NCBI GenBank assembly: GCA_021790935.1
Contig: JAJYFL010000001.1
Span: 186,001-250,000, forward strand
Reading direction: 5' to 3'
DNA length: 64,000 bases
From: a bacterium
GTDB lineage: Bacteria > Vulcanimicrobiota > Vulcanimicrobiia > Vulcanimicrobiales > Vulcanimicrobiaceae
The notes under the pieces are model-generated. The model saw nothing but the letters and a program-made list of their open reading frames with translations. It did not search any database and had not been told where the DNA came from. The translations under genes and the position numbers were made by a program. Positions 33,371 through 50,613 of the stretch are shown one piece after another. Position 1 is the first letter of the stretch. Each line of letters begins with the position of its first letter.

Positions 33371-34255
33371 CTACGAACGCAGCACCAGTCCCTCGAATGC
33401 GGCTTGTGCCGGCGAGAGCGTGCGATCCGCCGCACGTACCAGGCGAAACGAGCGGTGGAGCGGCAAATCGTCGATCGGCAGCATGCGCACCATACCGTTG
33501 CGGGCGTCTCGTTCGACGACCAGCCGAGAGAGAATCGCGATGCCGAGCCCGGCCTCTACGGCGCGAAGAATCGCCTCGCCGCTGGGCAATTCCAGCGCGA
33601 CCGGAGGCCGGATGCCGCGCGTTTGCAGCGTGTCGTAGCCGAGATCGCGGGTCCCCGAACCGATCTCCCGGCTGATGAACGGTTCGTTCGCGAGATCGCT
33701 CGCGCGAACGCGGCGGCGGCGGCTCAAGCGGTGCGCGCGAGCCGGAACGACGAGCACGAGTTCGTCGTCGCGAAACGGCGTCGTTACCAAATCGTCGGGC
33801 GGGGCGCCTTCTATCAGCCCGAGGCCCAGCGTGTGCCGGCGAACCAGCTCGTTGATGACGGCGGTATTGGCGATCTGCACGCGAACGCTGGCGGCCGGGC
33901 GCACCGTGCGAAATTCGGCGATGAGACCTGGCAGCACGTAGGTGCCTACGGTAACGGTTGCGCCGATCTCGAGCGTCCCGCTGCGCACGTGCGCGAAGTC
34001 GGCCATCTCGCTCTCGAGCAAGGCCACGCCGTCGACGACGGAGCGCGCGCGTTCGGCCAGGAAGCGCCCCGCTTCGGTGAGCAGCGGCCGGTGGCGCACC
34101 ACGTCGACCAGTTTCAGATTGAAGTGGCGGCCCAACTTTGCAACGTGCTGCGTGACGGCCGGCTGCGTGACGCCCAAGCGTTCGGCCGTCTTTCCGAACG
34201 AGCCGCACTCCGCGAGCGCGGCGAAGGCCTCGAGCTGCGCGAGCGAGATCGGCAT
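33371..34255 (-). CDS. LysR-family transcriptional regulator
   Basis: This 294-aa regulator has a winged HTH at the N-terminus (ISLAQLEAFAALAECGSFGKTAERLGVTQPAVTQHVAKL) and a periplasmic-binding-like effector domain (EIGATVTVGTYVLPGLIAEF, and SGEAILRAVEAGLGIAILSRLVVE). It is divergent from the sulfur operon, 81 bp away. YeiE-type LysR regulators often neighbour yeiH genes and respond to sulfite, so control of the downstream operon is a fair inference. The start is taken as ATG 34255; a GTG two codons earlier is possible. Confidence 0.9.
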   Translation of the reverse strand: MPISLAQLEAFAALAECGSFGKTAERLGVTQPAVTQHVAKLGRHFNLKLVDVVRHRPLLTEAGRFLAERARSVVDGVALLESEMADFAHVRSGTLEIGATVTVGTYVLPGLIAEFRTVRPAASVRVQIANTAVINELVRRHTLGLGLIEGAPPDDLVTTPFRDDELVLVVPARAHRLSRRRRVRASDLANEPFISREIGSGTRDLGYDTLQTRGIRPPVALELPSGEAILRAVEAGLGIAILSRLVVERDARNGMVRMLPIDDLPLHRSFRLVRAADRTLSPAQAAFEGLVLRS

Positions 34256-34262
34256 ACGCACA

Positions 34263-34280
34263 CTATAAGGTAAACTATAG
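34263..34280. promoter_or_regulatory. Inverted repeat, candidate LysR operator
   Basis: CTATA-AGGTAAAC-TATAG forms an inverted repeat in the 81-bp divergent gap between the LysR gene and the solute-binding protein gene. A spacer of this size is compatible with a T-N11-A type LysR site. It lies close to the LysR start, suggesting autoregulation and divergent activation of the sulfur operon. Confidence 0.45.
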
Positions 34281-34336
34281 GATTGTGCAAGTAGCGCTAA
34301 TTTGACTTATCTATGACCCGGGCGTAGCATCGGGGC

Positions 34337-35263
34337 ATGCGCCGAATGTCGCTTCTCAATATTTTTGCGCTGCTTGCCGTGCTGCTCGCGAGCCGCGCGA
34401 TTCCGGCGGCGGCCGCCCCCCGGCCCATAGCCCCGTTCGATTTCACCGTGCCGCCGGTCGACCAGATACTCGATCTCCACGGCGACCCGTCCGATCCCAA
34501 CCTCGTCGTCTTCATGGCGGGCAACCAGTTCATGGTCATGAACGCTTTGATGGCCGCATTTCACAAAGCGCATCCCGAGATCTCCCGGATCTTCTACGAA
34601 ACCTTACCGCCCGGCATCGTCGCGCGCCAGATGCGCGCCGGCGGCATCCGTATGGGCAATCTGGTCGTGACCGCGCAGCCCGACGTCTTTCTCTCCGGAA
34701 AACGGCGCATGCGCGTGATGCAGAGAGAGGGGTTGGTCGCAGCGCCGTTCGCCTATGCCACCAACGTCCTGGCCATCGAGGTGAAGGCGGGGAATCCGCT
34801 CCACATCGAGTCGCTGCGCGATTTGGGGCGGCCCGGCGTTCGCGTCTCGATGCCGAACCCTGCATGGGAGGGCGTCGCGATGCAGATCGAGCGCGCCTAT
34901 CGCAAGGCGGGCGGCGAGGCCCTCGTGCATACGATCATGGTGACCAAGCGCGCGGCCGGAACGACGCTGCTGACGAAGATTCATCACCGGCAAACGCCGC
35001 TCTATATCATGGACGGAAAGGCCGACGCGGGCCCGGTGTGGATCTCCGAGGCGCTCTACCAGGAGCGCATCCACCATCCGATCGCGATGGTCGCAATTCC
35101 GGCAGCTGATAACGTCGGCGCCGTCTACGAAGCTGCCATGGTGACGAAGGTCCGGCACCGGACGGCGGCGCAGGATTTCCTCAACTTTATGAAGACCCCC
35201 ACGGCACGCGCCATCTATCGCTCGTACGGCTTCGGCCAACCGCCGGCCGCGCGCAAGGAGTAA
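34337..35263 (+). CDS. Orphan extracellular solute-binding protein (ModA/sulfate-type fold)
   Basis: This 308-aa periplasmic binding protein has a signal peptide (1-29, ending AAA). The body has type II binding-protein features (NLVVFMAGNQFMVMNALMAAF, FAYATNVLAIEVKAGNPL, GRPGVRVSMPNPAWEGVAM). No ABC permease or ATPase gene is next to it. It is the first gene of a block that continues, 4 bp later, with a DsrE-like protein. It might bind an oxyanion such as sulfate, thiosulfate or molybdate. The ligand is not recognisable from motifs here. Confidence 0.8.
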   Translation: MRRMSLLNIFALLAVLLASRAIPAAAAPRPIAPFDFTVPPVDQILDLHGDPSDPNLVVFMAGNQFMVMNALMAAFHKAHPEISRIFYETLPPGIVARQMRAGGIRMGNLVVTAQPDVFLSGKRRMRVMQREGLVAAPFAYATNVLAIEVKAGNPLHIESLRDLGRPGVRVSMPNPAWEGVAMQIERAYRKAGGEALVHTIMVTKRAAGTTLLTKIHHRQTPLYIMDGKADAGPVWISEALYQERIHHPIAMVAIPAADNVGAVYEAAMVTKVRHRTAAQDFLNFMKTPTARAIYRSYGFGQPPAARKE

Positions 35264-35267
35264 CGCA

Positions 35268-35990
35268 ATGAAACGCAGCTCGTTCCTGGCAGCCACGTCC
35301 GCTTCGCTCGTGACGATCGGCGCTGCGGCGCAGGCCGCGAAAGCCGCGCAAGCGGTGCCGGGCGGCACCCACCTGGTCGAACGCCACGCCGATTTCAACG
35401 CCGAGACTTTCGGCCGCATCGTCGGCCGGCCCGCGGAGATTCGCGAACTCTTCGAGGCGATCGCCTTCCATCCGCTCTATCTTGCCAACGTGAAGAACGC
35501 GCTCAACGGCCTGCACTTCGGCTTCGGTTACCCGGCCGATCGCATCGCCGTCGTGGCGGCAGCGCACGGGCCTTCCAGCGCGTACACGTACTCCGACTAC
35601 CTCTGGTCGAAGTACCACATCGGGAAGGCGTTCAAGCTCAAGGATATGCAGGGCGATCTCGTGACGTCGAACGTATTCGTGAAACCCAACCATGCGATCG
35701 ACGCATCCGCGGATCCGGACGACGAGAAAAGCATCTATCAGGACACCTCGATCCAGACGCTGCAAAAGCGCGGCGTCATCTTCCTCACCTGCCATACGGC
35801 GGTCGAAGAGCAGTCGCGGGCGCTCCTCAAAGGCGGTTTCGCGCCGAGCGGCATGACGCCCAAAGACGTCGCCGACGATATCCTCACGCATCTCATACCG
35901 GGAGCCGTGGTGGTGCCGTCGATGGTCGCGACCGTCGCCGTGCTGCAGGCGCGCTACCACTACGCCTACGCAGCGCTGACCTTCGCGTGA
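35268..35990 (+). CDS. Secreted DsrE-like protein
   Basis: This 240-aa protein has a leader beginning KRSSFLAA that may be a Tat or Sec signal (residues 1-26). The rest has DsrE-like features: FGFGYPADRIAVVAAAHGPSS, GVIFLTCHTAVEEQSRALL with one conserved Cys, and GAVVVPSMVATVAVLQARYHYAYA. DsrE/TusA-type proteins carry sulfur on a cysteine. An exported version would be unusual and suggests periplasmic sulfur handling. It sits between the solute-binding protein and a dihaem cytochrome in a tight operon. The identification is by fold style and context, not certain. Confidence 0.7.
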   Translation: MKRSSFLAATSASLVTIGAAAQAAKAAQAVPGGTHLVERHADFNAETFGRIVGRPAEIRELFEAIAFHPLYLANVKNALNGLHFGFGYPADRIAVVAAAHGPSSAYTYSDYLWSKYHIGKAFKLKDMQGDLVTSNVFVKPNHAIDASADPDDEKSIYQDTSIQTLQKRGVIFLTCHTAVEEQSRALLKGGFAPSGMTPKDVADDILTHLIPGAVVVPSMVATVAVLQARYHYAYAALTFA

Positions 35991-36784
35991 TCGCCGTGCG
36001 CCCGTTACGCTTGGCTCTTCCGGCGCTGCTGCTGGCGATCGCCGTAAGCGGCTGTGCCGGCACGCACGCCGGCCGATCGCCGGTGAGAGCGATTCCGGCC
36101 GGCCGCGTCGGCAGCCTGGTCAACTACGGGCGCGAGATTCTCGACGATACGCCGAAATACGCGAAGGGCTACGTCACCGCCGACATGTCGTGTCAAGCGT
36201 GCCACTTGGATTCCGGAACGAAATCGCGTGGAGGAACCCTGGTGGGCCTATACGCACAGTTTCCGCAATGGAATGGCCGGGCGCATCGCGTGATCGCGCT
36301 GCAAGACCGCATCGCGGAGTGCTTCCTCTACAGCATGAACGGCCGCCCACCGGCGTACCAAAGTAAGGAGATGGAAGCGTTGGTCGCCTACATCGCGTGG
36401 CTTTCGCGCGGAACGCCGGTCGGGGCGAAACCGAATCCGGCCGTTCGCATCGCACGCTTCGCGCCGCCGGGCGCGCCGAGCGCGCGGCGAGGCACGCAGA
36501 TCTACGCGCAGAAGTGCGAGATGTGCCATGGCGCGAACGGCGCGGGCGTTTCGGGGCGCTACCCGCCGCTCTGGGGGCCGAAGTCGTTCAACAACGGCGC
36601 CGGCATGCACAAGCTCGGGATGATGGCCGGCTTCGTCAAGTACAACATGCCGGCGAACGCTCCCGGGACGCTCACCAAGCAACAGTCCTACGACGTATCG
36701 GCCTACGTGCTGAGCCACTCCCGGCCGAAGTTCGACAAGAACGAACTCGTCACGTTCCCGGCGCAAAGAGCGGGCTATTTCTAA
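35987..36784 (+). CDS. TsdA-like dihaem c-type cytochrome (thiosulfate dehydrogenase family) lipoprotein
   Basis: This is a 265-aa cytochrome with two CxxCH sites: Cys69/Cys72/His73 and Cys177/Cys180/His181. The N-terminus has a lipobox (AVSGC, Cys23). The first half fits TsdA: DMSCQACHLDSGTKSRGG, LYAQFPQWNGR, RIAECFLYSMNG with Cys112 just before SMNG, and EALVAYIAWLS. TsdA oxidises thiosulfate to tetrathionate and uses a cysteine haem ligand. Whether Cys112 is that residue needs an alignment. The GTG start overlaps the upstream stop (GTGA). Confidence 0.85.
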   Translation: MIAVRPLRLALPALLLAIAVSGCAGTHAGRSPVRAIPAGRVGSLVNYGREILDDTPKYAKGYVTADMSCQACHLDSGTKSRGGTLVGLYAQFPQWNGRAHRVIALQDRIAECFLYSMNGRPPAYQSKEMEALVAYIAWLSRGTPVGAKPNPAVRIARFAPPGAPSARRGTQIYAQKCEMCHGANGAGVSGRYPPLWGPKSFNNGAGMHKLGMMAGFVKYNMPANAPGTLTKQQSYDVSAYVLSHSRPKFDKNELVTFPAQRAGYF

Positions 36785-36893
36785 CACGAACCCATGGTTC
36801 TCAAGGGTCACCAAGGACGCAGCCGGCTCTAAACTCCCGGGTCTTTTTTTATGCCTCGTCATCGCGCTGGTTGCGTACGCGTTCGGGCGCATC

Positions 36894-37805
36894 GTGCCGC
36901 TCGTGGGCGGCCCGGTCTTCGGCATCGTCATCGGGATGCTCGTCGCGCTCCTTTGGAGACCGGCAGCGGTCTTCTCTCCGGGGGTGAAGTATGCGAGCAA
37001 ACAGCTCCTACAGCTCTCCATCGTCGTTCTCGGAGCGAATCTCAGCCTGCAGCAGATCGCCGGCAGCGGCATGCGTTCGCTCCCGGTCATGCTCGGAACG
37101 CTCGCGATCACGCTCACGGTCGCGTATGTGGCCGGCCGCATGCTCGGCCTGGATACCAACTTGCGCCGGTTGCTCGGCGTGGGCACCGCGATCTGCGGCG
37201 GCTCGGCAATTGCGGCGCTTTCGACGGTCGTGGAGGCGAGCGAGGCCGAGATTGCCTATGGCATCTCGACGATCTTCTTCTTCAATATCGTCGCCGTTCT
37301 GACGTTCCCGCCGATTGGACACCTGTTGGCGCTTTCGCAGCAAGCCTTCGGATTATGGGCGGGAACGGCGATCAACGACGCGTCGTCGGTCGTCGCCGCC
37401 GGATGGGTCTACGGACACGCCGCCGCGAACGAAGCCGTCATCGTGAAGTTGACGCGCACGACGCTGATCGTGCCGATCGTGATCTTCTACGCCGCTAAGA
37501 CGATTGCGGCTTTACGCACGACGCGCGGCGTCATCGACTGGAAGGCGATTACGCCGTGGTTCATCCTCTGGTTCTTGTTTGCGGCGTTGCTCAATACGTT
37601 CGGTGTGATTCCGGCGGCGGCGCACCCGGGGCTCACGCAACTCGCGCTCTTCCTCATCGTCTTGGCGCTGAGCGGCGTCGGGCTTTCGGCCGATTTCGCG
37701 AAGATGCGTGCGGCCGGACTACGGCCGCTGGCACTCGGATTCGTGCTTTGGGTCACGATCGCAGCAAGCAGCTTGCTCATCGCGCACGTCGCGCAGGCCG
37801 GGTAG
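36894..37805 (+). CDS. YeiH-family putative sulfate/sulfite exporter, start uncertain
   Basis: This polytopic membrane protein of the YeiH/UPF0324 family carries QLLQLSIVVLGANLSLQQI, GTAICGGSAIAALSTVV, WAGTAINDASSVVAAG and TLIVPIVIFYAAK. The canonical GTG at 36894 falls inside what looks like TM1. The upstream in-frame sequence (LPGLFLCLVIALVAYAFGRIVP) continues the family N-terminus, yet no ATG, GTG or TTG is found before a stop at 36711. An ATT at 36777, overlapping the cytochrome gene end, is the only near-cognate start. YeiH is linked to sulfite or sulfate efflux, which fits the operon. Confidence 0.85.
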   Translation: MPLVGGPVFGIVIGMLVALLWRPAAVFSPGVKYASKQLLQLSIVVLGANLSLQQIAGSGMRSLPVMLGTLAITLTVAYVAGRMLGLDTNLRRLLGVGTAICGGSAIAALSTVVEASEAEIAYGISTIFFFNIVAVLTFPPIGHLLALSQQAFGLWAGTAINDASSVVAAGWVYGHAAANEAVIVKLTRTTLIVPIVIFYAAKTIAALRTTRGVIDWKAITPWFILWFLFAALLNTFGVIPAAAHPGLTQLALFLIVLALSGVGLSADFAKMRAAGLRPLALGFVLWVTIAASSLLIAHVAQAG

Positions 37806-42222: not shown

Positions 42223-42597
42223 GTGGACCGCGAGCGCCGAGCGCGCGGCGAGGAGTTGCTGCGCGCCGTCGACGGAGACCGGGTAGCGGATAATCTCTTG
42301 CGCGCCTACGAGGATGTCGCGCCGGATTTCACGCGTTATCTGGTTGAGTTCGCCTTCGGCGAGATCTACGCGCGCGAAGGCGACCTGCGCCAGCGCGAAC
42401 TCGTTGCGATCGCTTCTCTGGCTACCATGGGCGGCTGCGACGCTCAGCTGGAGACGCACGTGCACGGCGCGCTCAACGTCGGCCTTACCAAGGCCGAGAT
42501 CGTCGAAGCGGTCATGACGCTCGTTCCCTTCGCCGGCTTTCCCAAGGCGCTGAACGCGATCGCAATCGTCAAACGCGTCTTCGAGAAGCGTTTTTAG
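42223..42597 (+). CDS. Carboxymuconolactone decarboxylase family protein
   Basis: This 124-aa all-alpha protein of the CMD/AhpD-like superfamily has GGCDAQLETHVHGALNVGLTKAEIVEAV, typical of PcaC-like members. Only one cysteine sits before the conserved His, so it is unlikely to be a CxxC AhpD-type alkylhydroperoxidase. No protocatechuate genes are near. It starts with GTG 3 bp after the 2-oxoglutarate dehydrogenase stop and overlaps the convergent pbpC gene by 4 bp. Its substrate is unknown. Confidence 0.85.
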   Translation: MDRERRARGEELLRAVDGDRVADNLLRAYEDVAPDFTRYLVEFAFGEIYAREGDLRQRELVAIASLATMGGCDAQLETHVHGALNVGLTKAEIVEAVMTLVPFAGFPKALNAIAIVKRVFEKRF

Positions 42598-44846
42598 CGC
42601 GAGCTAAGCGCGAAGCCGCGTTTCGCATGCGGCCGGCCGCGAATGACCTCGAAGCGCACGCGCCGCACCGCGCGGCCGGACGCCACGGTCAGCACCCACG
42701 CTCCCGGCCGCACCGTCCAAAAATAGCGGCCGCCGCCGCCGCGCGCGATCCGGCGGCCGTCGAGCGACCACGTGACGAGCGCTCCGCGCGGACGGCTGAT
42801 GCGAAACTCGACCGTTTGCTGCGCGCGACGAGGGTCGTTCGGCGCGAGCGCGTCTTCGAAGACGGCGCCGTCCTGGGGAAAGAGAATGTGGAGCGGCCCC
42901 GTGGTCTCCCCCTGCTGCGCGCGCCATCGATCGTAGGCGGCCTGCCGCGCCGCGCTTCGCGGGCGCCGCTCTGCCAAGAGCATGGCGCGCAAGTCGCCGG
43001 CGTCCAGGTACTCGCTATAGACGTGCCGGCAGTCGCGCGCCGGCGGGAGCCCGGTCGTCGCGCAGAGCGCCACGCGCGCGTACCCTTGCGGTGCGGGAAA
43101 CGGCGGCGGATCGCGGCGTTCGTAGAGGTGGAGCATGATGCGGTTCCATAGCGGCCCCGCGCCGCTGACGCCCGCGACGTCGCGCATCGGCGCGCCGGTG
43201 AAGTTCCCCACCCACACGGCGACGGTATACTGCGGCGTGTAGCCGACGGTCCAGGTATCGCGAAAACCGGAGGAAGTGCCGGTTTTCACGGCGGCGGGGA
43301 AGGGCATGTCGACGACCGACCCGATCCCGAAGGACTGCGCGCGCGCGTACGGATCGGAGAGCATGCTCGTGATCAGCTCCCACGTCCCGCGGTCGCCGAT
43401 CTGCGTGCCGCGCACCGGTCCGCCGCCGCGCACGGTGCGCAGTGGGATTGCGTCTCCACCCCGCGCGAGCGTGACGTACGCGTGCGCGAGATCCCAGAGC
43501 GTGACGTCGCCCGCGCCGAGCGTGAGGCCGAGCCCGTAATACGCCGGCGGATGCGTGAGATGAGCGAAGCCGAGTTGGTGGAGGCGAGCCAGAAAGGCGG
43601 TGACGCCGACGCGTGCGAGCACGCGCACCGCCGGCACGTTGAGCGAGTTCGCGAGCGCGAAACGCACCGGAACCGGTCCGGAAAACTGCCGGCTGTAATC
43701 TTGCGGGCTGTAGATCTCGCCGTTCGGAATCGCGTATGAGGTCGGTACGTCGGCGAGGATCGTATTCGGTCGAATCGCCCGGCGCTCGAGTGCGAATTCG
43801 TAGAGGAACGGTTTGAGCGTCGATCCCGGCTGGCGCAGCGCGCGTACCCCGTCGTTGCGGCCGAGGTACGCATCGTTGAAATAATCGGTCGAGCCCAGAT
43901 ACGCCAGTACTTCGCCGTTGCGGTTGTCGATCACGAGCGCGGCGGCTTGCGTGACGTTGCGCCCCGAGAGCGCGCCGACGACTTGCCGGGCTTGGCTCTG
44001 GACGAAGCGCTGCAGGCGCAAGTCGATCGTCGTGCGCACCGGGGAGGGAAGGTCGGGGCGTTCGCGCGCGATGCGAAACAGGAGTTGCTGCGCTGCGATC
44101 GGACCGTCGCCGAGCGGGCGAAGATGGATCTCCTCGCGCATCGCGATGGCGGCTTGCGCCGCGGTGGCGGATCCCGTCGCGACCATGCGCGCGAGGACGT
44201 ACCGGGCCCGAGCGCGCGCGGCGGCCCAGTGAGATCGCGGGTCGAGACCCGTGGGATCGTTAGGTATGCCGGCCAGCAGGGCCGCTTGCGCCAGATCGAG
44301 ATCGCTTGCCGGGATTCCGAAGTACGAGCGAGCGGCGGCATCGACTCCGTAGATGTTCTCGCCCATCGTCACGCGGTTGACGTAATCCTGGAGGATCGTT
44401 ACCTTGTCGACGCCGGCTTCGATGCGCGTTGCGTCCCACATCTGAAGCAGCTTTCCCGCAAAGGTGTGCGGGATGCCGAACTGCATGCGGGCCAGTTGCA
44501 TCGCGATCGTCGAAGCACCGCTTTCGATGCAGAGGCAGCGCAGCGTTTGAACTCCGGCTCGCGTGAGGGCGAGCCAATCGACGGCACCGTGCTCGAAATA
44601 GCGAGCGTCCTCAACGGCGAGAATCGCGCGGACGAACTGCGGCGAGACCTTGGCGAGCGGTACCGCCGAGGTATGGGTCTGGTCGGGGCTGAGCACGGTG
44701 CCGAGCGGAATCCCCGTCCGGTCCAGAAATGCGATGGAGGTATCGCGCGGCGCGAGGAGCGAGGCCGGAACGCAGAGCGCTCGCCCGAGAAGAACGAGGC
44801 CGAGCCCAACCGTGCCGAGCACCAGCCAGAAAGCGTAGGGGCGCAC
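42594..44846 (-). CDS. pbpC: Penicillin-binding protein 1C
   Basis: This bifunctional murein synthase of about 750 aa has an N-terminal membrane helix and a GT51 transglycosylase domain (AILAVEDARYFEHGAVDW, GASTIAMQLARM). The transpeptidase domain has Ser in STLK (ALRQPGSTLKPF), SLN (ANSLNVPAV) and KTG (AAVKTGTSSGFRDTW). A C-terminal beta-rich PBP1C domain follows. The GTG at 44846 is preferred because the family N-terminus begins there. A TTG at 44873 is possible. The extra 198 codons upstream are antisense to the macroglobulin gene. PBP1C and bacterial alpha-2-macroglobulins typically pair, as here. Confidence 0.93.
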   Translation of the reverse strand: MRPYAFWLVLGTVGLGLVLLGRALCVPASLLAPRDTSIAFLDRTGIPLGTVLSPDQTHTSAVPLAKVSPQFVRAILAVEDARYFEHGAVDWLALTRAGVQTLRCLCIESGASTIAMQLARMQFGIPHTFAGKLLQMWDATRIEAGVDKVTILQDYVNRVTMGENIYGVDAAARSYFGIPASDLDLAQAALLAGIPNDPTGLDPRSHWAAARARARYVLARMVATGSATAAQAAIAMREEIHLRPLGDGPIAAQQLLFRIARERPDLPSPVRTTIDLRLQRFVQSQARQVVGALSGRNVTQAAALVIDNRNGEVLAYLGSTDYFNDAYLGRNDGVRALRQPGSTLKPFLYEFALERRAIRPNTILADVPTSYAIPNGEIYSPQDYSRQFSGPVPVRFALANSLNVPAVRVLARVGVTAFLARLHQLGFAHLTHPPAYYGLGLTLGAGDVTLWDLAHAYVTLARGGDAIPLRTVRGGGPVRGTQIGDRGTWELITSMLSDPYARAQSFGIGSVVDMPFPAAVKTGTSSGFRDTWTVGYTPQYTVAVWVGNFTGAPMRDVAGVSGAGPLWNRIMLHLYERRDPPPFPAPQGYARVALCATTGLPPARDCRHVYSEYLDAGDLRAMLLAERRPRSAARQAAYDRWRAQQGETTGPLHILFPQDGAVFEDALAPNDPRRAQQTVEFRISRPRGALVTWSLDGRRIARGGGGRYFWTVRPGAWVLTVASGRAVRRVRFEVIRGRPHAKRGFALSSR

Positions 44847-44931
44847 GATTCGCTCAAGGTTCGAGCCGCGCAAGTACTCTTCCGGCAGGCCGTTGAATGC
44901 CTGGGAGGCTGTCGTTTGCTGGAGGCGCTCG

Positions 44932-47900
44932 ATGCACGTTTGCTGCCGCCGGATCGTTCGCGTGGGTTTCTTGGCCGCTTGCGCGCTTGCCGCTCTGGGC
45001 GGCTGCGCCAGACCCATCGTTCGCGCGCCTCTCGCCACCGTGGCGCCGCTGCCGCTTCCTTCGTTGCCTCCGTGGATCGAGCAGATATCTCCCACCGGGA
45101 CGGCCGGATCGCTCGCGCAGATCCGCGTGATCTTCGCGCACCCGTTACTTCCGGTTGGGGAGATCGGCACGCCGGGAGAACGGGCGCTCCTCGCGGATTT
45201 CGAGATAGCGCCGGCGCTGCCCGGCCGCTTCGTGGTGCTGACGCCGCGGATGATCGGCTTCGAGGCCGCTGCCGCGCTGCCGGAGGCCACGCGCGTGCGC
45301 GTGACCTTGAAATCCGGGCTGCGCGATCTCCGGGGCGATACGCTCGCGCGAGATCTCGCATGGACGTTCGTGACACGGCCGTTGAAGATCGTCGATGCCG
45401 ATGCCGAGGCGGCGCTCGAGGAGACGTACGGGCCGGCCACGCCGCCGCCAGCGCCGGTCGTCTCGCTGCGGCCGATGGTGCGACTCGAGTCGAACGTGCG
45501 GCTCGACCCCGCCTCGCTCGCGCGGTTCGCTACGTTTCAAGCGCCCGGCAACGCGCCGCCGATCGGCGCGGCGGTCGCCGTCGAGACGCAAGCCACGGCT
45601 CCGCCCGGCTTCGGAGCGGCCGCGCGCTTTAACCCGGCGCTGCGAACGTACATCTACGACGTCACGCCGCAGCAGGCGCTCGCCAAAGCGACGAATTACG
45701 CGTTTGTCGTCGATCCGGGCGTGCGCCCCGCCTACGGCAATCTTCCGAGCACGACGCCGTTCCGGAAGTCGCTGACGACCTACGGTCCCCTCGCGCTCGT
45801 CCAAGCCTTGGCGACCACCGATCCGATGATCCCGGAAGGAGCCGCGCGTTTTGCGAACGGCGATCCGGCGCTCGTCTTCGACAATCAGCTCGATCCGAAG
45901 AGCTTCGCGCAGAACGTGACGCTCTCGCCACCCGGCCGGCCGGTCCCCAAACGCTACTCGCTCTCGTACGACGGAGATACGATCTACGTCAACCCCTTCG
46001 CGCTGGCACCCGATACGCGCTATACCGTCACGATCGCGGGGGCGATGCAAGACGTCTACGGGCAGCAACTCGGGCTTGCAACCGCGACAACGTTTCGGAC
46101 CGGCGACCTCGCTCCGTATTTTTGGGCGCCTGCCGGGCTCAATCGGTTCGTCGCGGGCGAGCGGCTGCAGCTGCAGTACAAGGCCGCGAACCTGCCGGGC
46201 AACCGCTACCAGGCTGCCTACGAAACGGTCGATCCGCGGCAGCTGGTCTACTCCTCCGAACCGCAACCCGCCGATTGGAAGTGGTATCGCGTCGCCGGTG
46301 CGGTGCGCAACGTCGAGAGTCGCGTCGACGTGCCGCTGAGCTCGCTGCTTGGCGGTGCCTTCGGCACGCTCGCGTACGGCGTCGGCGCGCAGATTCCGGG
46401 GACGTCGCCGACCTACGGCCTGGTTCAGCTGACCGACCTCGGCGTCTTCGCGCAGTGGTTTCCGCGGAGCGGCGAGGTCTCGGTGCAGCGCTTGAGCGAC
46501 GGAGCTCCCGTTGTGGGCGCTCGCATCGACGTATACGTCTCGCATGCGTACGAGCAGAGGCAGCCGGGTTCGCCGAGCCCGTGTGCGAGCGGTACGACCG
46601 ATGCGGCGGGAAGATGGAGCGTGCGCGGCGCCGCACTCGAAGCGTGCTACGCCGGCAACCGGCCGGCGGACGAGGCGCCGGAACTGCTCGCCGTCGTGCG
46701 CGACGGGCGCGACTGGTCGTACGTCCGCACCTACGATTGGAGCGGCATCTACGACTACGACGGCATTACGGGCGGCTGGTCCGACGGGCAGCCGATCTCG
46801 CGCGGCACGCTTTACTCGGACCGCGAGATGTACCAGCCCGGCGAGCGCGCGTGGCTTACCGCCGTCTGCTACGTTTTGCAAGACGGAAAGTTGAGCGCCG
46901 ATCGAGACGCTCGTTACGCTCTAAAGCTGACCGATCCGAACGGCAAGGACGTTTCGCTCCCTTCGCAAACGACGAACCGGTACGCGACGTTCTCGTTTCC
47001 AATCGATCTCGCGAAGACGCAAGAGCTCGGCTACTACACCGTTACCGCTACCGGCCCGCAGGGCGCGCGCATCACCGGAAGCTTCCGCGTTGCCGAGTTT
47101 CACCCACCGAATTTCAGCGTCGACCTGACCCTCGACCGAAGCGTTGCGGCAAGTGGGGAGACGGTGCAGGCAAAAGGCCGCGCGCGTTACCTCTTCGGCG
47201 CGCCGATGAACGGTGCCAAGGCGATGCTGCACGTCACGCGCCAGCCGATAAGCTTCACGCCGCCGGGCTGGGCGGAGTACGCGTTCGGCCGGCAGTGGCT
47301 CTGGCCGCAAGAAGAGCCGAGCGTGACCTCGGACGTGACGCAGCAGAGCGTCGTACTCGACGCGCAGGGCAAGGCGCGAACCGCGATAGCGGTGGATAGC
47401 AAACTTCCGTACCCGATGGCGTACCGCGTGGATCTCCAGGTGAGCGACGCATCGAACCTGGAGAGCTCCGCGACGGCGTCGTTCAGCGCGCTGCCGAGCT
47501 CGTCGCTGGTGGGCCTGCGCAACGATTTCGTCGGATCGGTAGGCGTGCCTGTAAACGTCGATGTCATCGTCACCGATCCGCAGGGTCACGCCGAGAGCGG
47601 CAAGGCCGTGCACCTCGAGCTTCAGCAGATGCGCTACGGCAGCGTCACGCAGATCGTGGAGGGAAGTCAAGCCGCACTCAATTCCGTTCGATTCGTTACC
47701 GTTTCTCAGGCGGATACGACCAGCGCCGGCACGCCGCAGCGCGTACAGCTTACCGCGAGCGCTCCGGGCAGCTATCGGATCCGCGCCGAGATATCCGGCA
47801 CGGGCGCTGCCGCGGCAACCGATTCTCCGATCTGGATCTCGGGACCGGGCCAAGCGGTATGGGGGCAGAGTAACCCTTCGCAACTTGAGATGAAACTCGA

Positions 47901-50613
47901 CAAAGCGGCATACCACGTCGGCGACACGGCGAAGCTGGCCGTCGCCTCGCCGTATCGCCGGGCCGATCTCTATCTCTCCGTCGTCCGCGACCGCGTTCTT
48001 TACAAGCGGACGATCGCGATCGACGGCAGCGCACCGGACGTGCGCATTCCGATCACGCAAGCGATGTTTCCCAACGCCGCCGTTGAGGCCGAACTCGTGC
48101 GGCGCGGCCCGCCGCTCACCCAGAGCAACGTTCGGGGCGTCGATAGTCTGGTCCGCATCGGTATGGTGCCCCTGGCGCTCGATCTGAGCGCGCGCTATCT
48201 TCGGGCCTCCGTCGTTCCGGATAAGGCGACGCTCGCTCCCGGAGACGTGCAGCGGGTGCGCCTGACGCTTCGCGACGGGCGAGGCCACCCCGTGCGAGGG
48301 CAGTTTACCGTAATCGTTGCGAACGATGCCATCTTGCGGTTGAGCGGCTACCGGCCGCCGGATCTCGTGAAGACGGTCTTCGCGGCGCAACCGATCTCAA
48401 CGCGTTTTGCGGACAACCGCCCGAACGTTACGCTGGCACAGCCGACGGACGCCACCGAGAAAGGCTGGGGTTACGGCGGCGGCTTCCTCGCAGGCGCGGC
48501 GGGAACGCACGTGCGCACGAAATTCGTGCCGCTGGCCTACTTCAACGGATCCGTGCGAACCGGTGCCGACGGCTCGGCCGAGGTTTCGTTCAAGGTTCCC
48601 GACGATCTGACGACCTGGCGCGTGATGGCCGTCGCCGCAACCGATGCGGCGGAACCGCGCTTTGCGAACGCCGACGCCACCTTCGTCACGAGCAAACCGC
48701 TGGTGACCGATGCGTTGCTGCCGCAGTTCGCGCGTACGGGCGATCGCATCGATGCGGGCCTAGCGTTGATGAACCTGCTCGGTACCCCCGTCGACGCGAC
48801 GACGCACGGGACGCTGACCGGCGGTTTGACCTTTGCCTCGTCGTCGTCGCAGTCGCTCGATGCGCGAGCGTCGTTCGGCGCGGGCATGAATGCGTGGCGC
48901 TTTCCGATACTCGTGGGAGCGCCGTCGCCGTCGTCGGTCGAGTTCCAGACGAGCATCGGCAAGGGCGTCGAAGATGCGTTCCGCGTGCCGTTCGAGATAC
49001 GCAACGCCGGCGTGAGGGAATCGACGATCGATGCAGGCGCGACCTCCGGGCGCGCGCAGATTCCGCTCGCGTTCGGGCAGGCGCCCGGGACGCTGACGAT
49101 CTCCGTCGCGGGTTCGCTCCTCCCCGAGATCGCCGTGCCGGCGGAACGCGCGCTCGGCGCGGAGCGGCTAGCGCTGCTGCTGCCGACCGCAGGCCGCTTG
49201 AGCATCGCCACATCGCTGGTCGTGCTCGAACGGCGGATCGGGCATCCGCTGACCGCGCATGACGCGCGCTCGGAGGCGATCGCGGCGGTCGCCGGCTTGG
49301 CGGCGCTGCAGCGGCTTGACGGAGGGTTTGCCTTCTGGCCGAACGGTCATTCCGACGCCTTCGGCAGCGCGGATGCGGTCCGGAGCCTGGCCTACGCGCG
49401 CGACCATGGCATTCCCGTGCCGGTGGCCGTGCTCGCAAATGCCAAGCCCTATCTCGTGCGCGCGCTGGCCGATCCGCACGCCGCCGAACGCTGGTGCGAT
49501 ACCGCCGCGTGTAAGGCGAGCTTGCGTTTGGCTATGCTCCAAGCGCTGGCGGCTCTCGGCGACCGGCGTACGGACTTCCTGCAGGCGATCTACGCGCAGC
49601 GCGGCGCGCTCGGCTTGGGAGCTCGCGCGCAACTCGCGCGTTACCTGCAGGAGACGCCCGGCTGGCGCATGCAGGCCGATACGCTCGCGCGCGAACTCGC
49701 GCAGAAGATCTACGTAACGGGGCGATACGCAAACATCCAGTCGCAGAGCGCATGGTACTATTCGGAGGTTGGCGCGCAGGCCGCGTACGTGCGTCTGCTC
49801 GTGGCTCGCCGAGCGCCGGCCGAGCGCACCGATCGGGCGATCCGCGCCCTCGTCGCGCAGTCGTGCCGCTGCGGCTGGCCGTCGGCAGCGGATACGGCGG
49901 CGGCGCTGCGCGCGATGGTCGACTACGCCGCAACCGAACGCACGGCACCGGATTTCACGGCGAACCTGACGCTCGACGGCAAGAACATCGGCACCGCGCG
50001 GTTCGCCGGTTACGGCGCGGCCGAAAGAACCTTCACCGTCGACACGCGCAATTTTGCCGTAGGCAGCCACGCGCTCGTTCTGAGCAAGGTCGGAGCCGGC
50101 ACGCTGCACTACGTGGTTTCCTACGCCTATCGCCTGGACGCCGGCGCTCCCGGAGCGCTGCACGGCTTGCGCGTCGTACGGGTGCTTCGAGCGGTCGATA
50201 CGACGCCCGTGCTCGCGACCTTCGATCTCGCGCCGCAGACGCAAACGCTCTCGTTCGCGGCGAACGAGGTTTTCGATGTGGGCGTGCGCGTCATCGTCGA
50301 TCACCCCGTCGATCGCGTCGTCGTCAGCGATCCGTTGCCGGCCGGATTCGAGGCGCTGCACACTTCGTTTCAAACGACGGCCGCGTACTATCAACCGCTG
50401 GCCGATAGCTGGCAGATCGATTACCAGCAGATCTACCGGGATCGAGTCGTTGCATTCGCACGCCACCTGGATCCGGGAGTCTACAGCCTGCACTATCTCG
50501 TTCGCTCGGTGACGCCGGGTACGTACCTCTGGCCTGGGGCGCAGGTCTATCTGCTCGACGCTCCCGAAGAGTTCGGAAGAACGGCCTTCGCCACCGTGCG
50601 CGTTCGCGAGTAG
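44932..50613 (+). CDS. Alpha-2-macroglobulin family lipoprotein
   Basis: This 1893-aa exported lipoprotein has a lipobox ending LAALGGC (Cys25). It carries MG-domain repeats (YTVTIAGAMQDVYG, MYQPGERAWLTAVCYV, GDTAKLAVASPYR) and the TEVKVPDDLTTWRVMAVA-like segment typical of the family. The thioester motif CxEQ expected in the thioester domain is not found; the corresponding region reads LLLPTAGRLSIATSLVVLERR. A C-terminal bait-like MG10 domain completes it. It is divergent from pbpC. The family is thought to trap proteases that reach the periplasm. The thioester loss suggests non-covalent trapping. Confidence 0.93.
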   Translation: MHVCCRRIVRVGFLAACALAALGGCARPIVRAPLATVAPLPLPSLPPWIEQISPTGTAGSLAQIRVIFAHPLLPVGEIGTPGERALLADFEIAPALPGRFVVLTPRMIGFEAAAALPEATRVRVTLKSGLRDLRGDTLARDLAWTFVTRPLKIVDADAEAALEETYGPATPPPAPVVSLRPMVRLESNVRLDPASLARFATFQAPGNAPPIGAAVAVETQATAPPGFGAAARFNPALRTYIYDVTPQQALAKATNYAFVVDPGVRPAYGNLPSTTPFRKSLTTYGPLALVQALATTDPMIPEGAARFANGDPALVFDNQLDPKSFAQNVTLSPPGRPVPKRYSLSYDGDTIYVNPFALAPDTRYTVTIAGAMQDVYGQQLGLATATTFRTGDLAPYFWAPAGLNRFVAGERLQLQYKAANLPGNRYQAAYETVDPRQLVYSSEPQPADWKWYRVAGAVRNVESRVDVPLSSLLGGAFGTLAYGVGAQIPGTSPTYGLVQLTDLGVFAQWFPRSGEVSVQRLSDGAPVVGARIDVYVSHAYEQRQPGSPSPCASGTTDAAGRWSVRGAALEACYAGNRPADEAPELLAVVRDGRDWSYVRTYDWSGIYDYDGITGGWSDGQPISRGTLYSDREMYQPGERAWLTAVCYVLQDGKLSADRDARYALKLTDPNGKDVSLPSQTTNRYATFSFPIDLAKTQELGYYTVTATGPQGARITGSFRVAEFHPPNFSVDLTLDRSVAASGETVQAKGRARYLFGAPMNGAKAMLHVTRQPISFTPPGWAEYAFGRQWLWPQEEPSVTSDVTQQSVVLDAQGKARTAIAVDSKLPYPMAYRVDLQVSDASNLESSATASFSALPSSSLVGLRNDFVGSVGVPVNVDVIVTDPQGHAESGKAVHLELQQMRYGSVTQIVEGSQAALNSVRFVTVSQADTTSAGTPQRVQLTASAPGSYRIRAEISGTGAAAATDSPIWISGPGQAVWGQSNPSQLEMKLDKAAYHVGDTAKLAVASPYRRADLYLSVVRDRVLYKRTIAIDGSAPDVRIPITQAMFPNAAVEAELVRRGPPLTQSNVRGVDSLVRIGMVPLALDLSARYLRASVVPDKATLAPGDVQRVRLTLRDGRGHPVRGQFTVIVANDAILRLSGYRPPDLVKTVFAAQPISTRFADNRPNVTLAQPTDATEKGWGYGGGFLAGAAGTHVRTKFVPLAYFNGSVRTGADGSAEVSFKVPDDLTTWRVMAVAATDAAEPRFANADATFVTSKPLVTDALLPQFARTGDRIDAGLALMNLLGTPVDATTHGTLTGGLTFASSSSQSLDARASFGAGMNAWRFPILVGAPSPSSVEFQTSIGKGVEDAFRVPFEIRNAGVRESTIDAGATSGRAQIPLAFGQAPGTLTISVAGSLLPEIAVPAERALGAERLALLLPTAGRLSIATSLVVLERRIGHPLTAHDARSEAIAAVAGLAALQRLDGGFAFWPNGHSDAFGSADAVRSLAYARDHGIPVPVAVLANAKPYLVRALADPHAAERWCDTAACKASLRLAMLQALAALGDRRTDFLQAIYAQRGALGLGARAQLARYLQETPGWRMQADTLARELAQKIYVTGRYANIQSQSAWYYSEVGAQAAYVRLLVARRAPAERTDRAIRALVAQSCRCGWPSAADTAAALRAMVDYAATERTAPDFTANLTLDGKNIGTARFAGYGAAERTFTVDTRNFAVGSHALVLSKVGAGTLHYVVSYAYRLDAGAPGALHGLRVVRVLRAVDTTPVLATFDLAPQTQTLSFAANEVFDVGVRVIVDHPVDRVVVSDPLPAGFEALHTSFQTTAAYYQPLADSWQIDYQQIYRDRVVAFARHLDPGVYSLHYLVRSVTPGTYLWPGAQVYLLDAPEEFGRTAFATVRVRE

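Follow-up and report, generated by a model that had tools for sequence, protein, structure and literature searches.

Why would a bacterium keep a periplasmic solute-binding protein (SBP) beside two probable sulfur-related redox proteins when no importer accompanies it? The question is raised by a five-gene set in a 64,000-nt stretch of bacterial DNA (the window) that belongs to a 2.65-Mb, 98.8% complete genome (G000), referred to here as Eremiobacterota-type; its relatives bearing names in the genome collection are all Candidatus Eremiobacterota. A lysR gene on the minus strand is followed on the plus strand by genes for an SBP, an exported protein of the DsrE fold, a dihaem cytochrome c, and a YeiH-family membrane protein. 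On balance, we favor the reading that this is a LysR-controlled, transporter-less periplasmic unit that oxidizes thiosulfate to tetrathionate, in which a TsdA-type lipoprotein takes the electrons and YeiH exports sulfite. The features of the locus are as follows.

33371..34261, minus strand: LysR-type regulator of the YeiE/NdhR-CbbR branch (Pfam HTH_1 and LysR_substrate)
34298..34310, plus strand: TAATTTGACTTAT, conserved element between lysR and the SBP gene, overlapping the -35 TTGACT
34337..35263, plus strand: periplasmic oxyanion-type SBP of the sulfate/molybdate class (Pfam SBP_bac_11, E 2.7e-44)
35268..35990, plus strand: exported DsrE-fold protein of 240 residues, a relative of NF052225, no Pfam family
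35987..36784, plus strand: TsdA-type dihaem cytochrome c, predicted lipoprotein with a VSGC lipobox (SoxA-TsdA_cyt-c, E 1.1e-19)
~36783..37805, plus strand: YeiH-family membrane protein, probable sulfite exporter (Cons_hypoth698, E 1.3e-69)

All five genes lie where the original prediction had placed them, with lysR divergent from the other four, and, as it had also stated, the operon contains no gene for a permease or ATPase of the ATP-binding cassette (ABC) type. Its claim that most junctions measure 4 bp or less holds for the first two, with a gap of 4 bp between the SBP and DsrE-fold genes and an overlap of 4 bp between the DsrE-fold and cytochrome genes, but not for the cytochrome-yeiH junction if yeiH starts at GTG 36894, which leaves a gap of 109 bp. 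This GTG is the first standard start of yeiH; the homology begins some 57 bp upstream, where there is no in-frame ATG, GTG, or TTG. In most relatives, yeiH has a standard start that coincides with the beginning of the homologous region or slightly precedes it, as a rule at most 40 bp from the cytochrome stop, although the yeiH of locus L004 also lacks a standard start and that of L003 has only a TTG.

The gene order is kept far beyond chance. Conservation within the Eremiobacterota was counted in 33 related loci, and adjacency was scored in the 31 where the contig permits. The same order had been suggested as something to seek in other genomes, and indeed, in 29 of these 31 loci, the DsrE-fold and cytochrome genes were found as direct neighbors in this order and orientation, the exceptions being L032, where the two genes are divergent, and L035, which has no cytochrome. 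An SBP gene is present in 19 of the 33 loci, and 13 loci have the entire LysR/SBP/DsrE-fold/cytochrome/YeiH set in this order. The flanking genes rmuC and kgd, the latter a 2-oxoglutarate dehydrogenase fusion gene, are usually kept too. A minimal form, in which rmuC and kgd enclose only the DsrE-fold and cytochrome genes, is seen at L027, L026, and L013, the last of which has a dienelactone-hydrolase-like gene at the expected SBP position. The complete operon is borne by the acid-mine-drainage metagenome-assembled genomes (MAGs) 15 and 14 (L018 and L023; PMC8357290), and the corresponding paper credits thiosulfate oxidation to sulfate to MAG 22 only (PMC8357290). Gene content, order, and conservation are directly supported by the data, as are the conserved residues, the predicted fold, and the promoter element dealt with below.

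What kind of protein is the DsrE-fold component? Residues 34 to 233 match NCBIfam NF052225, "thiosulfate dehydrogenase" (TSD), with an E value of 5.2e-31 and 107.9 bits, the curated equivalog cut-off of this model being 300 bits. The homology spans the mature domain, and the HG, W, Y, RG, and C positions are common to the over-cut-off proteins of L053 and L054; such over-cut-off proteins occur in 2 of 148 genomes of the phylum. Across 36 homologues, among them two over-cut-off TSDs, no variation is seen at His100, Gly101, Trp113, Tyr116, Arg168-Gly169, or Cys175, and His176 is retained in 35 of the 36. From the name of the model and the matching gene neighborhood, NF052225 appears to stand for AFE_0042 of Acidithiobacillus. 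Thiosulfate dehydrogenases of the AFE_0042 type are haem-free, and the over-cut-off NF052225 members contain no CXXCH, which is consistent with a haem-free enzyme. AFE_0042 was described as a TSD of about 25 kDa with a pH optimum of 2.5; neither natural-type acceptor tried with it, ubiquinone or horse cytochrome c, was reduced, and the mechanism of the haem-free TSD is listed as open in a review (PMC6335251).

In the AlphaFold2 model of the window protein (mean predicted local distance difference test score, pLDDT, 86.9), Cys175 is located at the end of a strand, ahead of a helix. The first two PDB matches identified by Foldseek are the DsrE-fold structures 1l1s and 2pd2, with probabilities of 1.00 and 0.99 and target-normalized TM scores of 0.74 and 0.70 at E values of only 0.02 to 0.03; the third, equal in length to ST0148, is a designed cage. 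A five-member profile of neighboring DsrE proteins matched with a probability of 56% and an E value of 1.1e-4, the cysteines being aligned (unrelated controls, 0.4-0.5), while the comparison of single-sequence profiles with the neighboring DsrE proteins was weak. A Pfam search, PF02635 included, returned no family for the protein even at an E value of 10, and searches of PDB sequences with the protein and its profile gave no credible match. Because it rests on the predicted fold and the profile comparison, with PF02635 unmatched, the DsrE assignment is one of predicted fold and not of Pfam family membership. The protein resembles the DsrE superfamily (MTH1491/ST0148 and DsrE3A of Metallosphaera cuprina) in its predicted fold and strand-end cysteine; unlike these, it is exported, has about 240 residues with an extra region, and shows no linkage to TusA or Hdr genes.

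Two further loci bear on this family. A second, divergent DsrE-fold paralogue in G000 (L055:6582-7304; G000:C4:18587-19234) is 29% identical, has Cys-Arg in place of Cys-His, and sits among acyl-CoA carboxylase and enoyl-reductase-like genes. At L054:6744-8255 (G057), an over-cut-off TSD gene precedes one for a small DsrE protein (PF02635), with neither SBP nor cytochrome, and G057 has SoxY.

The label "DsrE-like" that had been given to the window protein thus agrees with its predicted fold. Among named families, however, the closest to it is that of the haem-free TSD, and for this reason a part as enzyme or redox partner appears more likely than one as a passive carrier of sulfur. The original prediction, by which the SBP and the DsrE-fold protein might present sulfur to the cytochrome, corresponds to the latter role; in this form, the two would be non-catalytic carriers of a bound sulfur species, with all the chemistry left to the cytochrome. 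This possibility, which overlaps with thiosulfate oxidation as favored here and differs from it in which protein is catalytic, is one that we consider somewhat unlikely. DsrE3A is a thiosulfonate carrier (PMC4175335), and the DsrE-fold protein and the cytochrome form the most constant pair; on the other hand, the characterized relative AFE_0042 was reported as an enzyme (PMC6335251), and in G019 an over-cut-off TSD (NF052225, 401 bits) occupies the corresponding slot between rmuC and kgd, with a cytochrome of the same family encoded directly after it, which we read as a swap of one TSD type for the other beside a constant cytochrome.

By every sequence determinant tested, the cytochrome of the window set is a TsdA, as had been predicted. 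Its closest PDB match is TsdA of Allochromatium vinosum (E 1.6e-48), against 2.1e-7 for the best SoxA-type chain (1h31). With the NCBIfam SoxA model it reached 56 bits, the cut-off being 110; these scores and the haem ligands favor TsdA, and SoxA was ruled out. In a 31-row alignment that includes A. vinosum TsdA, the haem motifs C69xxC72H73 and C177xxC180H181 are invariant, as are the haem-1 ligand C112 (RIAECF), which aligns to the cysteine of RIGDCF in A. vinosum TsdA, and the haem-2 ligand M221, which is preceded by N220 as in TsdA of Campylobacter jejuni. In the latter protein Cys138, the sixth ligand of haem 1, is essential, and the haem-2 residue Met209/Met255 is strictly conserved across TsdAs (PMC5146829). 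A lipobox-like motif in 26 of 27 Eremiobacterota rows suggests that the cytochrome is membrane anchored. The protein thus shares with TsdA and TsdBA of A. vinosum and C. jejuni the SoxA-TsdA domain, the haem-1 His/Cys and haem-2 Met ligation, and the alignment of both domains, whereas it differs in being a predicted lipoprotein, in having no adjacent TsdB gene in the window, and in that the Eremiobacterota cytochrome is almost always paired with a DsrE-fold protein. Another cytochrome of G000 (L060:3474-4253, on C19) is a mono-haem protein of the SoxA/TsdA type, with one CXXCH and a downstream Cys, and adjoins an apparent IS607-type resolvase/TnpB pair.

TsdA of C. jejuni works as a tetrathionate reductase (PMC5146829), so could the cytochrome of the window run in reverse, with the SBP and the DsrE-fold protein binding tetrathionate? 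We consider this distinctly unlikely. It would fit the Asn-Met pair of haem 2, found as in the C. jejuni protein, and the reaction of Metallosphaera DsrE3A with tetrathionate but not with thiosulfate (PMC4175335). Nevertheless, the Met is present in all TsdAs, and an Asn-to-Lys exchange left the direction of C. jejuni TsdA unswitched (PMC5146829). In addition, haem-copper oxidases in the genome suggest an aerobic life, and AFE_0042 was described in the oxidative direction (PMC6335251).

The third component, the SBP, is encoded once in the genome, and its profile matches sulfate- and molybdate-binding proteins of the PDB (E 2e-12); its structure model has a pLDDT of only 65, with the second lobe below 50. 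This homology to SBPs of ABC sulfate/molybdate importers is compatible with a remnant, or with a part of an unlinked importer, that has nothing to do with its neighbors. Yet neither of the genes that would make up an ABC importer with it, for a permease and an ATPase, is found beside the SBP in the operon or in any of the neighborhoods of relatives read. Moreover, the SBP has a TSD as its neighbor in two phyla and, in a further one, a DsrE protein; of the 20 plasmid records listed for the DsrE-fold TSD protein, several of them near-duplicates, 14 carry it as well. We consider this explanation very improbable. The transporter-free SBP remarked on in the original prediction is a real feature of this locus but is not peculiar to this genome, as an SBP without ABC partner is a repeated neighbor of TSD, also in Pseudomonadota (PMC2754497, PMC6335251).

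Outside the phylum, homologues of the DsrE-fold protein are found on plasmids at 28-32% identity, are often annotated as "transcriptional initiation protein Tat", and adjoin an SBP of the same family (43-51% identical); for SBPs next to TSD in Pseudomonadota, the identity to that of the window is 43-47% over the alignment. TSD and SBP genes lie side by side on plasmids of six genera. TsdA-like cytochromes are nearby in Bradyrhizobium, Methylobacterium, Paraburkholderia, and Bosea, that of Bosea being fused to additional c-haem domains, and DoxD is nearby in the remaining two, Kozakia and Gluconobacter. All five parts of the window set occur in one region of a Bradyrhizobium betae plasmid, and a Hymenobacter (Bacteroidota) plasmid encodes LysR, YeiH, a TsdA-like cytochrome, a shorter DsrE protein of 160 residues, and an SBP.

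A closely related known setting is the A. ferrooxidans cluster, in which AFE_0041-0044 encode a transporter, TSD, SBP, and DoxDA and show higher expression on sulfur (PMC2754497). The cluster AFE_0041-0046 (transporter, tsd, sbp, doxDA, rhodanese) resembles the window in placing a Tat/exported TSD-family protein beside an SBP without ABC genes and in including an anion transporter (PMC2754497, PMC6335251). There, however, the electrons are assigned to DoxDA and quinone, whereas the window has a TsdA-type cytochrome in the place of DoxDA; YeiH replaces the C4-dicarboxylate/malate-type transporter, lysR is added, and the TSD protein belongs to a divergent subfamily.

The two outer genes of the set point to sulfite. 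The LysR protein scored 178 bits with the NCBIfam YeiE model, under the equivalog cut-off of 480; its top PDB matches, NdhR 5y2v, 8sbf, and YeiE 8sbh/7erp, place it in the same branch. Its effector is probably sulfite or another sulfur oxyanion. The Glu in the LIEG motif of this protein was set aside as effector evidence, because the motif may be common among LysR proteins. The YeiH protein gave 135.7 bits with TIGR00698, short of the subfamily cut-off of 232.6. In Salmonella, YeiE senses sulfite and controls the adjacent yeiH, the main sulfite-resistance determinant (PMC12880088), and in Hyphomicrobium, YeiH is held to export sulfite during thiosulfate oxidation (PMC12423496). The window is similar to the YeiE-YeiH sulfite response of Salmonella and Hyphomicrobium denitrificans in that a YeiE-branch LysR and a YeiH exporter share one locus, but its lysR diverges from a whole operon for sulfur oxidation, with yeiH at the far end, and not from yeiH itself.

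Each of the 19 loci with lysR has the 11-mer ATTTGACTTAT upstream of the first operon gene, and each of the 14 that show the upstream region but have no lysR lacks it. Its 13-mer form has, with at most one mismatch, a single occurrence in the whole genome, at this locus, where it overlaps with the -35 element of a promoter-like site (-35/-10 match). As the element tracks the presence of lysR, occurs once in the genome in its 13-mer form, and overlaps the -35, it fits a putative local LysR operator/promoter.

These links to sulfite also allow the unit to be seen as a defense against sulfite and reactive sulfur: LysR would sense sulfite, YeiH would expel it, and the three proteins encoded between them would turn sulfite and thiosulfate of the periplasm into polythionates of lower reactivity, for detoxification and not for energy. 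We regard this as rather unlikely. It is consistent with the YeiE branch of the regulator and with YeiH as a known sulfite resistance determinant (PMC12880088), with hosts that include heterotrophs and plasmids on which genes for a Blh-type dioxygenase, TauE/SafE, or a metallo-beta-lactamase-fold hydrolase are nearby, and with a genome without SoxY and RuBisCO. Against it, many Eremiobacterota loci keep the DsrE-fold/cytochrome pair without LysR and YeiH, and TsdA is respiratory in the case of C. jejuni (PMC5146829).

What would the host do with thiosulfate? SoxY was not found in G000; controls were silent in a first search, and a repeat on the family genomes showed that the query works, detecting SoxY in 5 of 61. 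The SoxY that would define Sox-type thiosulfate oxidation is thus absent from G000, and RuBisCO was likewise not found in the genome. Three full-length haem-copper oxidase genes encode potential electron acceptors, and a gene on C25 gives a weak DoxD/DoxX match (28.8 bits). The absence of SoxY and RuBisCO, together with the three oxidases, points to a heterotroph that lives aerobically and to which thiosulfate would be a supplementary electron donor or a toxicant.

The thiosulfate oxidation that we favor can then be formulated as the net reaction 2 S2O3 -> S4O6 + 2 e-. The SBP would bind thiosulfate or a related oxyanion and concentrate it for its partner proteins. The DsrE-fold protein of the TSD family may hold thiosulfate at Cys175 as a Cys-S-thiosulfonate and/or couple two thiosulfates; this chemistry is proposed because DsrE3A, which forms Cys-S-thiosulfonate, gives a precedent (PMC4175335). 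The TsdA-type dihaem lipoprotein, which by its sequence would itself be a competent thiosulfate dehydrogenase, would accept the electrons at the membrane and pass them to the respiratory chain, and YeiH, under the YeiE-like LysR, would clear the sulfite built up in sulfur turnover. In this scheme, we infer the substrate, the direction, the partnership of the DsrE-fold protein with the cytochrome, and the roles that the SBP and YeiH have here.

Several observations weigh against it. The DsrE-fold protein is below the NF052225 cut-off and is classed as a relative, not a member; it is only 25-30% identical to over-cut-off TSDs, and its activity could differ. The SBP, missing from 14 of the 33 loci, is not essential to the TSD-cytochrome pair. 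The Asn-Met pair of haem 2 is that of the tetrathionate-reducing C. jejuni TsdA, and the direction of the reaction can therefore not be read from the sequence. Neither TSD nor TsdA yields sulfite, so that the reaction alone leaves YeiH unaccounted for, and no tetrathionate-using step was identified, SoxY being absent. A unit for thiosulfate oxidation and efflux whose SBP has no ABC partner, as in the original prediction, is nonetheless well backed by homology and context, and neither outcome named there as a refutation, a better alignment of the cytochrome to a non-TsdA family or a lack of conserved order, was observed; what has changed is the role of its DsrE-like protein, now a TSD relative. 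The likelihoods attached to these explanations are not mutually exclusive, as the readings overlap.

Elsewhere in the window, at 42594-50613, a gene for a pbpC-type penicillin-binding protein (minus strand) adjoins one for a bacterial alpha-2-macroglobulin of 1906 residues (plus strand). Long minus-strand open reading frames over the alpha-2-macroglobulin gene have no Pfam match and look spurious.

More generally, and only tentatively, the haem-free TSDs may be a cysteine-based family of the DsrE fold whose natural acceptor in many bacteria is a TsdA-type cytochrome and which, with a transporter-free SBP, would form a multi-protein periplasmic thiosulfate oxidase with representatives in three phyla or more (Eremiobacterota, Pseudomonadota, and Bacteroidota) that can be plasmid-borne. 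The components and the pairing of TSD with an SBP are already known; in the accessible literature, subscription papers and the original AFE_0042 paper aside, no description was found of the combination with a TsdA-type cytochrome, of its occurrence in three phyla, or of a DsrE fold for the TSD family. The operon thus offers a hypothesis for the mechanism of the haem-free TSD, a DsrE-type cysteine, and for its acceptor, a TsdA-type cytochrome. It also provides a context, encountered repeatedly, in which a binding protein would act without an importer, and a plausible thiosulfate-oxidizing trait for Eremiobacterota that possess neither Sox nor RuBisCO.

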